Assembly (NCBI GenBank): GCA_030613575.1 | Contig: JAUWLP010000007.1 | Location: 1-35,182, forward strand | DNA length: 35,182 bases | Direction: 5' to 3' | Source of the DNA: Desulfobacteraceae bacterium | Lineage (GTDB): Bacteria > Desulfobacterota > Desulfobacteria > Desulfobacterales > UBA11574 | In this document: positions 1 through 31,696 of the stretch, piece after piece | Numbering within the stretch: the stretch's first letter is position 1 | How the letters are laid out: every line of letters begins with the position of its first letter | Notes under the pieces: model-generated | Database searches by the model: none | What the model was told of the DNA's origin: nothing | Seen by the model: only the letters and a program-made list of their open reading frames with translations | Translations under genes and position numbers: made by a program

Positions 1-23
1 GTCGCTGCTAACTCTTCTCCCAT
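1..23 (-). CDS. Possible 5' end of a leftward gene (first 7 codons only)
   Basis: On the minus strand an ATG at 23 is followed by open codons (MGEELAA) to the window edge. A purine-rich GGAAGGGG lies about 8 bases upstream of it, a good ribosome binding site. Nothing can be said about the product from seven codons. The gene would be divergent from fdhE, with the repeat element at 101-348 in between. This is only a candidate start and could be chance. Confidence 0.25.
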
Positions 24-100
24 CTTTTCACCCCTTCCACGTTACCCGAGTGCTTCCATTATTGAACTCAGCATGGATTCCGATCCTTCGGCACAACTTT

Positions 101-348
101 GATGATCTCGTAAAAAGTCAAAATTCGATGGCAAAGTAAAAAGCTCCAAATTCAAGGCGCGCAAATCCTGAGGAATGAGGCGTACTTACAGTACGCTGCA
201 GTGATTTACCCTGTTAAATATTTTCTTTGTTTGATGTTACTGTTTTCAAGCAGCTCCTATATCCCATATCTCTTGATATGGCTGCCTTCAATTTAACAGG
301 GCAGGGGATGCAGTGCAACGCAGAAGTTGGACTTTTTACGAAGCCGTC
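101..348. repeat. 248-bp dispersed inverted-repeat element (MITE-like, no ORF)
   Basis: The ends are imperfect inverted repeats: GATGATCTCGTAAAAAGTC at 101-119 and GACTTTTTACGAAGCCGTC at 330-348. Inside are a GCGTAC/GTACGC hairpin (180-196) and a second inverted-repeat unit (209-301). The same end sequence recurs at 12281, 14573-14611, 19821 and, degenerately, 24049, 28590 and 32498, always between genes. The element carries no transposase gene, so if mobile it would depend on functions in trans. The track ORF beginning at 313 starts inside it, which argues against that start for fdhE. Confidence 0.75.
209..301. repeat. 93-bp inverted repeat nested inside the larger element
   Basis: Perfect 11-bp inverted ends, CCCTGTTAAAT at 209-219 and ATTTAACAGGG at 291-301, enclose a core that folds through CCATATC/GATATGG (264-270 with 275-281) flanked by GCAGC/GCTGC. 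The flanking GCAGTGAT and GGATGCAGTGCAACG would read as one continuous palindromic element without this block. It therefore looks like one small element inserted into another. Confidence 0.6.
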
Positions 349-375
349 TTTCTTAATCAGAAGAAAGATCTATCC

Positions 376-1242
376 ATGTCCCCGAACCTTGAAAGCATAG
401 CTTCCAAAGTAAAAGTAATTGGAAAGCGTAACCCGGTCTATGCCGAGATCGCTCAGTGGGTAGGAGACCTTTTGTCCGAGACTGTACAGGCTGCTGGAAA
501 GTTTCGCCTGCCCGAGTTGAACCTTGACCAGGCTCCTTCACTGGAGGCCAGGTCCCAGGGGCGGTCTTTCCTGGACCCGGAAAAATTGTCCTTGGACTGG
601 GAACAGGCCGGGGCTTTATATAAACATCTAGTGGATCTGTTAAAGACAAGGGAAAACGGAATAAAGCAGGTGGAAGGATTGCTTCAAGCCCTTGCCAAGG
701 ATCAAAACGGTATTCCCAAACTGATGAAGGCAGTACTGGCATCAGACTTTGAAGCCATTGAGACAGCGGCCCGGGAATTTAAGATCGATCCACCGGTACT
801 GACACTTCTCCTCCGCTTGGCACTGAGACCGGCTCTGTTGAACGTAGCACAAGCCGTTTTGGAGCGGTTGGACCTAAATCAATGGACCTACGGTCACTGT
901 CCGGTGTGCGGATCAGCGCCAAAACTGGCCGATTTTTCCGGAGAGGGGGGCATGAGGACGCTGCACTGTTCTTTATGCGAAACTGCCTGGCCCTATCCTC
1001 GCCTTCGCTGCCCTTTTTGTGAAAATGATAACAGAGAGGACTTGAGCTATCTGAGGGCAGAGAGTGAAGAGGGCCTGCGTGTGGATCTTTGCAGCCGCTG
1101 CGGCCATTACCTCAAGACCATTGACCTGCGTGAACTGCCGGGACCAATAATTGTACCTTTAGATGATGTAGCCACCTGGCATTTGGATATAATAGCCCAA
1201 GAAAATCTTGAAAATCGGGAGTTCGATAGTGGACAAGGATAA
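376..1242 (+). CDS. fdhE: Formate dehydrogenase accessory protein FdhE
   Basis: FdhE-family protein needed for maturation of formate dehydrogenase; it acts in the cytoplasm on the catalytic subunit before export. The C-terminal third has four CxxC pairs expected for this metal-binding, rubredoxin-like fold: CPVC, CSLC, CPFC and CSRC (residues about 175-178, 198-201, 212-215 and 239-242 from the chosen start). The N-terminal two thirds is the helical FdhE domain. The track start at 313 lies in a repeat element and adds 21 residues unlike the family; ATG 376 gives MSPNLESIASKV, preceded by AGAAAGA, and a usual length of 288 aa. Only 5 bases separate its stop from hmcA, so it heads that operon. 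This suggests that formate oxidation feeds the cytochrome encoded next. No formate dehydrogenase structural gene lies in the window. Confidence 0.88.
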   Translation: MSPNLESIASKVKVIGKRNPVYAEIAQWVGDLLSETVQAAGKFRLPELNLDQAPSLEARSQGRSFLDPEKLSLDWEQAGALYKHLVDLLKTRENGIKQVEGLLQALAKDQNGIPKLMKAVLASDFEAIETAAREFKIDPPVLTLLLRLALRPALLNVAQAVLERLDLNQWTYGHCPVCGSAPKLADFSGEGGMRTLHCSLCETAWPYPRLRCPFCENDNREDLSYLRAESEEGLRVDLCSRCGHYLKTIDLRELPGPIIVPLDDVATWHLDIIAQENLENREFDSGQG

Positions 1243-30173: not shown

Positions 30174-30397
30174 TTGAGAATGAATTCCTGATCGTTAGCC
30201 GGCAATTCTCATTACCAATAATAATTCAGATCTTGTTTAATAGTTCAGGGATCAAAGAGTTTTCTTAAAGCACACTTTCATGAAAGTTTCAGATATTTTA
30301 CATTTTAATCAGTGGGCGGGTCAATATCGTCATTTAATACACCAGATTTTTTTGAGATGTTACTCCAAAGGGCTGCTATGAAATTTTACGCAAAAAA

Positions 30398-31696
30398 CTA
30401 TTTTTTCATATTTTTCGGGTTGCAGGTAAGGTGGTCATATATGAGATTCTTGAGCTTTTGCTGCAGAACCGAGTAAGAATAAAAACGTGTTGCAATTTCG
30501 TAGTTTGTCTCGACCATTTTTTGACGAAGTTCCTGGTTTTCAAGAACATCTCTTGCCTTGCTGACTGCATCCTCTGTAACATACCCGTCTATTTCTACGG
30601 TAAGAAACCCTTTGGGCTCGATGTCAAATGTATAAATTGAATATTTGTTTACAACTATCGGTTTACGAAAGTATACGGCTTCGAGAAAGGCATTTCCAAA
30701 TCCTTCAAAATTGGATGGATACGTTACAAGATCAGCGTGTGGATAGATATCATCAAGAGTGTAAATTTTCTTTCCGGTTTTAGTCAGCCCCCTGCGTTCA
30801 TTAATAATATCTGATACAAAAACAGTATCAACACTCATAAGCTTTGAATATTCCATGATTCTTTGTTCATAATCGTAGCCCTCATCACCGGAAGCATGCG
30901 AAATTATAAGCCTGGCTTTTTTCCCCAGCCTGTGGACTATTTCTATTGCATGTTCGATCCCCTTACGCTTTACAACACGAGTCGGCTGAAGGATAAAAAG
31001 CTCATCATCTGCGATTCCAAGGGATTGCCGCACATCTTTTGCATAATCATCAACCGGAAGCGGTGGGTTTTCAAAGTCCATGACATTTGGAATAATGGTT
31101 GCCGAGATACCTGTTCTAAGGCTTAGCTGGTTGTCGCCGGAAGAATTGATGGTCACGTGTTGTATCGACGGGAGGTGGGGAGGAAATGCCATGTTTAGAT
31201 ATTCCCAAACACTATTTGTCAAAAACTGCTGGCGTTCCCAGAAAAAATCGTGATGGTGGGCTATTGCAGAGATTCCGGTTTCTGATATCACCTCGGTAAC
31301 GGCAAGGCCTAATGGGATATTTAAAGGAATTGTCAGTGCATTTTCCGGAACTAAAAGTTCAATCGCGAATTTTTCGATGAATTTGTATAAATCATCCTTT
31401 AATTTTCTTTTAATTCCCATAATTGTTTGTGTAACATGCCGTTCACGTTTATGGACCCCAAAGCAGTGATTGTAAATATCTTTAATCTCAGGATGTGTAA
31501 AATGAGCTTCTTCTGCCAGATAGGAACAATCCGGCGGACGGTCAAGCTTACCTGCAAAATAGAAGCAGGAAAATCCTTCCCTTTGAAAAACAGTAGCCCA
31601 TTTTGCTGTTTCCAGGGAAACACCATCTGTTCCTGCAAAACGGGTTGAAATAAATCCGACATTGTGCACGGAACCGCAGAATTGACATTTTTCCAT
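30398..31696 (-). CDS. GT4-family glycosyltransferase with N-terminal CxxC
   Basis: 432-aa GT-B fold glycosyltransferase. N-terminal domain: GFISTRFAGTDGVSLETAKW (acceptor side, with the glycine-rich loop TDGVS). C-terminal nucleotide-sugar domain: LQPTRVVKRKGIEHAIEIV and the retaining-GT4 signature NFEGFGNAFLEAVYFRKPIVV, with the two glutamates 8 residues apart. Donor and acceptor are unknown. The protein starts with CQFCGS before the Rossmann domain, half of a zinc ribbon, which is unusual. GGGAG precedes the ATG. It stands alone: 224 bases separate it from the MinD-like gene and no polysaccharide cluster is present. It could be a sucrose/mannosylglycerate-type synthase or an envelope glycosyltransferase. 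Confidence 0.82.
   Translation of the reverse strand: MEKCQFCGSVHNVGFISTRFAGTDGVSLETAKWATVFQREGFSCFYFAGKLDRPPDCSYLAEEAHFTHPEIKDIYNHCFGVHKRERHVTQTIMGIKRKLKDDLYKFIEKFAIELLVPENALTIPLNIPLGLAVTEVISETGISAIAHHHDFFWERQQFLTNSVWEYLNMAFPPHLPSIQHVTINSSGDNQLSLRTGISATIIPNVMDFENPPLPVDDYAKDVRQSLGIADDELFILQPTRVVKRKGIEHAIEIVHRLGKKARLIISHASGDEGYDYEQRIMEYSKLMSVDTVFVSDIINERRGLTKTGKKIYTLDDIYPHADLVTYPSNFEGFGNAFLEAVYFRKPIVVNKYSIYTFDIEPKGFLTVEIDGYVTEDAVSKARDVLENQELRQKMVETNYEIATRFYSYSVLQQKLKNLIYDHLTCNPKNMKK

Follow-up and report, generated by a model that had tools for sequence, protein, structure and literature searches.

The imperfect palindrome at positions 101–348 (plus strand) of the window, the 35,182-nucleotide stretch of Desulfobacteraceae DNA analysed here, is a long-form copy of a MITE-like element that is common in sulfate-reducer genomes, has no genes of its own and was probably mobilised by the enzyme of a larger relative. 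The explanation that we favour, and consider likely, is a MITE dispersed within the Desulfobacterales on which an IS1182-like transposase would act in trans, with the 248-bp form spreading as one unit and the window copy being a hybrid. In this scheme, read from sequence comparisons, the transposase of a 1.89-kb IS1182-like insertion sequence (IS) with the same 19-bp ends would cut and paste the MITE into AANNTT targets, leaving a 6-bp duplication. The body is an imperfect hairpin of considerable length that bears a side hairpin, and some lineages have in addition an apex arm with a constant base (CCCNGTTAAAT/ATTTAACNGGG) holding one of several unrelated cores. A very abundant repeat of the Desulfobacterales is now tied to a probable transposase and to a target rule, which makes its annotation, masking and testing possible.

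Architecture and distribution of the element

The first-pass annotation had described a palindrome within a palindrome, and this description was borne out: an inner block of 93 bp (209–301) lies within an imperfect outer palindrome of 248 bp (101–348). The assignment to a MITE-like element is based on the sequence, on BLAST against the own genome and on size classes. The sequence and a repeat finder place the left terminal inverted repeat, GATGATCTCGTAAAAAGTC, at 101–119 on the plus strand and the right one, GACTTTTTACGAAGCCGTC (reverse complement GACGGCTTCGTAAAAAGTC), at 330–348 on the minus strand, and the same ends are carried by IS1182-like ISs. The repeat finder pairs 108–126 with 323–341 as outer arms (19 nt, 89%). 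The left end is tandemly repeated, its second and degenerate copy, GATGGCAAAGTAAAAAGCT, lying 26 bp further on (127–145, plus strand); the right end can pair with either copy and pairs with the second in the predicted fold. In genome G001, the left end consists of two near-identical tandem units 26 bp apart (L172:5553-5579 and L154:10561-10587), and the commonest form there is about 177 bp long, as if the left end had been duplicated stepwise.

A side hairpin, GCGTAC-TTACA-GTACGC (180–196, plus strand), shows two-sided changes among relatives. The apex module, TTTACCC...GGGCAGG (205–305, plus strand), is the segment by which the window copy exceeds the short form of the element; its 101 bp stand in place of a CGAA and are thus wider than the 93-bp palindrome. 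The latter (209–301, plus strand) consists of a core, here called type A, between two constant arms that can be read directly from the sequence, CCCTGTTAAAT (209–219) and ATTTAACAGGG (291–301). The gene to the right of the element is fdhE (PF24859 and PF24860; 376–1242, plus strand).

The block is a dispersed repeat, of which BLAST found 74 pieces in G000, the genome that contains the window and an incomplete metagenome-assembled genome (MAG) of 2.4 Mb, where most copies match 101–204 and 306–348 without the middle. The 19-base end, with at most one mismatch, occurs 154 times in this genome, and a reversed-pattern control gave no copies. Named records place the relatives in the Desulfobacterales, and the end pattern is present in 133 of 194 genomes sampled from this order. 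The copies fall into sharp size classes, namely a uniform short form of 151 bp, which is the outer element alone, and a long form of 248–250 bp when the core is of type A or B or of 202–237 bp with other cores; since they were collected partly with the element's own patterns, these family statistics are not an unbiased census. Uninterrupted outer copies are thus abundant, the 151-bp form being present in dozens of copies in the own genome. Both the 151-bp and the 248–250-bp elements are too short to encode a transposase. The 151-bp consensus had no match among plasmids and phages. Viral contigs yielded 14 stretches with the end pattern, some of which hold MITE copies, and no partner IS was seen in these 14 stretches. 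No account of this repeat family of the Desulfobacterales was found in the open-access literature.

Further modules were observed in some copies. Many copies of the type-A-rich genome G060 (L107, L109, L110, L117, L119, L120, L123 and L131), together with L068:2930-3090, have a right arm with another hairpin-rich module, CCCTTCGGCTTTGCTCAGGGC...GTCGAACGG, and copies of CR_Bin_276 have extra hairpins in the left arm.

The inner palindrome as an exchangeable tip hairpin

The present mobile unit is the whole 248-bp element, with the inner palindrome as an exchangeable hairpin at its tip, as follows from near-identical copies at unrelated sites, from cores lying inside the outer palindrome and from junctions at which nothing is duplicated. 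Unrelated sites hold copies that share 93–98.7% identity across most of the element or its whole length, with the inner block; the window copy itself shares 98.6% identity with L058 (217 bp) and 98.7% with L068 (225 bp), both at sites unrelated to its own. This speaks against the earlier proposal of the 93-bp block as a second element that had inserted into this particular copy. As the search pattern for core types included outer flank, the inner core alone was used as an additional probe, and it found one copy in the own genome and at least 40 in G060. Wherever the flanks of the 29 copies fetched from G060 are readable, the core lies in the outer palindrome at one position and in one orientation (some copies are cut by contig ends, and one has lost its right arm).

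Where the short form has GTGA-CGAA-GGATGC at the junction, the long form has GTGA-TTYACCC...GGGCAGG-GGATGC; four bases are replaced, with no duplicated outer sequence around the apex module. Other genomes have other cores in this same place: the constant arms of the long form enclose no fewer than four unrelated cores, with fixed apex position and orientation, namely type A in the window and in CSMAG_2168, type B in G000, G003–G005 and G008, type C in variants of CR_Bin_276 and S145_22, and type D in SURF_34. Both the junctions and the core types argue against a separate insertion of the inner block into this copy. Of the two non-autonomous elements postulated in the first-pass annotation, the outer one therefore stands, with its uninterrupted copies, target duplications and empty sites, but not a freshly inserted inner one. 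The exchangeable apex hairpins make the family a useful case in which to study how modules are acquired and exchanged in small mobile palindromes.

Nesting could, however, be ancient. A free hairpin with arms CCCNGTKAAAT/ATTTMACNGGG may have integrated, a single time, at the tip of the outer MITE, the composite now behaving as one unit whose core was replaced several times, a history that we regard as possible but rather doubtful. Short forms without the module are common, and a scan of all fetched DNA detected hairpins that share these arms but lie outside the MITE, at L003/L371, L051, L156, L161 and L172, as well as free hairpins with GTGAAAT or similar arms at L343, L363, L374 and L378. Those with the same arms in G000, G001 and at L051 span 31–92 bp, several being followed by CARG as in the MITE, and the scrambled-arm controls of the scan gave no matches. 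Because such hairpins exist outside the MITE, the apex arm may descend from a free-standing hairpin through a remote acquisition. Against such a history, only about eight convincing free hairpins were found in 1.5 Mb of stretches plus other loci, none of them has the type A core, and the module replaces CGAA with no duplication of the outer sequence around it. The short form could equally be a deletion derivative, the comparison of the two forms having no outgroup root. Low-copy free hairpins of 31–34 bp, CCCAGWGAAAT...ATTTCACGGGGCARG(C/T), whose arms are related to the MITE apex, were located at L374:12169-12199, L343:2643-2676 and L363:14021-14051.

A folded integron attC site carries RYYYAAC at its 5' end and GTTRRRY at its 3' end. 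In the inner block, GTTAAAT precedes ATTTAAC, which is the reverse order, and the block was rejected as an attC site.

Target duplications, hybrid flanks and the candidate transposase

The outer element generates target duplications of 6 bp with the consensus AANNTT. They are exact (6/6) in 47 of 91 copies, compared with 1.5 expected from shuffled flanks, and match in at least five of six positions in 63 of the 91. The remaining 28 copies lack a good duplication, the window copy being among them: AACTTT (95–100), the left target copy of one insertion and of the AANNTT type, faces TTTCTT (349–354), the right target copy of another, on the other side. Empty sites were found for both flanks of the window copy, in two different genomes. 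The left flank (1–100) is 93% identical to G213, which continues there uninterrupted through AACGTT. The right flank is colinear with G002 from base 349 onwards, with FdhE 94% identical, and the site upstream of fdhE in G002 is empty and reads GACTGCTT-TTTCTT-AATTAG. The left half of this fdhE-side insertion, with the left target copy (GACTGCTTTTTCTT, then the element), is found on another contig of the own genome, C131 (locus L006), in a stretch of 1.48 kb that shares 89% identity with the sequence preceding fdhE in G002.

In the window copy, the left end of one insertion thus meets the right end of a second one, a junction for which either recombination among dispersed copies or a false assembly through the repeat would be responsible. 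The statement that the element lies directly upstream of fdhE holds for the contig, in which the gene adjoins it, but the real position is uncertain, since the two flanks stem from different insertions. The copy on C131 (element at 30258–30409), a short form, is likewise without matching flanks and constitutes another hybrid junction in this MAG, with a left side that belongs upstream of fdhE and a right side that belongs to another gene.

To mis-assembly we give even chances. A G213-like contig end, comprising the left flank and most of the element, would have been joined to fdhE through the repeat that it shares with the true upstream copy. A false join fits the start of the contig only 100 bp to the left of the element and the fact that the window copy is the sole type A copy in the own genome. 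These 100 bp, with their 93% identity to G213, are absent from genomes of the same genus, and G213 also has a copy with 98.7% identity across 225 bp. The fdhE-side insertion has its left half on C131, likewise unmatched in its flanks, which points the same way. The same picture would nevertheless be expected from recombination between copies, and most joins appear sound, given the 63 of 91 copies with a match of at least 5/6. Whichever process produced the hybrid, it serves as a warning that MAG contigs of Desulfobacterales can be falsely joined at such repeats.

Candidates for the mobilising enzyme were sought by looking for the same ends spaced 1–3 kb apart in low-copy genomes. This yielded a complete IS, L280 in G148 (1891 bp), with AAACTT on both sides and an IS1182-like transposase. 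Two further complete ISs with ends as in the MITE came from relatives of this protein: L284 in G006, a genome of the same genus as the window's (1893 bp), and L286 (1887 bp), with the duplication AATTTT. One such end was in reach at the IS1182-like loci L285, L288, L289, L291, L293, L296, L302, L304 and L306. The best NCBIfam model for the transposase is NF033551 (transpos_IS1182), at 149.5 bits and hence below the cut-off of 270, and PF13751 and PF05598 matched as well. No IS1182-like protein was found in the window's own, incomplete genome. Judged by their shared ends, the complete IS1182-like elements are probably the mobiliser of the MITE. The similarity between MITE and IS is confined to some 18–24 bp at the ends, so that simple deletion from the IS does not account for the MITE.

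A different transposase might move the family, and the alternative that we met was IS66, since the same ends delimit a 1614-bp unit that contains an IS66 transposase gene. We consider this unlikely. The IS66 element has its own GTAAGCG ends and an 8-bp duplication, AAAATTTT, and lies inside a 120-bp MITE, and its relatives are devoid of the MITE ends, including one in the same genome at 98% identity. IS66 was therefore rejected as the owner of the ends; its IS within the 120-bp MITE (L279:973-2586; G033:C1:3785372-3786985) is a truly nested element. ISNCY (NF033594) was dismissed as a partner with the MITE ends absent from all fetched loci, and pairs of ends 1–3 kb apart in 0.79 Mb of G001 proved to be just separate MITEs flanking ordinary genes. 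A 958-bp element with the same ends and an exact AAAATT duplication was also observed (L281:308-1265, G188:C163); no transposase gene was recognised in it.

Folding of the element and comparison with known repeats

The stable fold expected for a transcript of this region was confirmed: positions 81–368 fold as RNA with −85.1 kcal/mol (z = −3.6), and none of 200 dinucleotide shuffles was as good. Among 42 short forms, 98.1% of the cells of the consensus structure pair. Two-sided changes occur in 11 of 38 pairs of the short form, with lower values in slid versions, and in 8 of 49 pairs of the long form (n = 27), inner stem included; in each case, none of 500 shuffles was as high, although the shuffles leave relatedness in place and several pairs change jointly in one subfamily, so that there are fewer events than cells. 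Pairing may be kept by functional single-strand folding or by quasi-palindrome correction, both of which are possible. The listed strand folds slightly better, by a mean of about 3 kcal/mol (32 of 42 short-form and 21 of 27 long-form alignment copies), and this strand preference is weak and not decisive.

These data bear on whether the element owes its retention to its RNA, which would be transcribed between fdhB and fdhE and serve as a structured leader, an RNase III site or a transcript stabiliser. Fold stability, compensatory changes and the better folding of the listed strand would agree with such a role, as would the location of the fdhE-side insertion between two same-strand genes. Yet compensatory changes would likewise result from palindrome correction at the DNA level, and orientation relative to genes shows no clear preference in 20 tandem gaps of G001 (13 against, 7 with, from crude gene calls). 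Moreover, the Rfam covariance models gave no match in window positions 1–600 at E values up to 5, the copy number is very high and close relatives differ in the presence or absence of the element. We regard an RNA role as very unlikely.

Among known repeats, Correia/NEMIS of Neisseria are MITEs with a short form of about 107 bp and a long form of about 155 bp, set apart by one internal segment (PMC2229807). They resemble the present element in having two forms, a high copy number and a long hairpin, but have other ends and another target than the 6-bp AANNTT, and the internal segment here has constant arms and exchangeable cores. The pneumococcal BOX element is also modular, with an optional middle part that folds apart from the frame (PMC3049150); it has a tandem boxB array in contrast to the single apex arm with alternative cores, and the sequences are unrelated. 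ERIC and RU-1 are similar as imperfect intergenic palindromes of 100–200 bp, but the present element duplicates AANNTT targets of 6 bp and shares its ends with an IS. The pneumococcal RUP, assigned to IS630-Spn1 through matching terminal repeats (PMC2229807), likewise is a MITE tied to an IS by its ends, whereas the partner here is IS1182-like and the target has 6 bp. Membership in Correia, ERIC or RUP was rejected on tabulated features, as the TA termini tabulated for these families, ERIC included (PMC2229807), are absent and the termini read GAYRR... with AANNTT as target.

IS1272 belongs to the IS1182 family, that of the probable mobiliser, and according to a published report it replaces stem-loops with no target duplication (PMC5678879), whereas the ISs described here leave 6-bp duplications at AANNTT. 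By analogy, the IS1182-like transposase might also swap apex stem-loops, which would make the family a platform for hairpin exchange. Such exchange would leave the traces of constant arms with unrelated cores, of CGAA replaced by a whole arm with no duplication and of free hairpins with the same arms, but we hold it to be highly improbable. The element belongs to an apparently unnamed MITE-like family that behaves like other bacterial MITEs.
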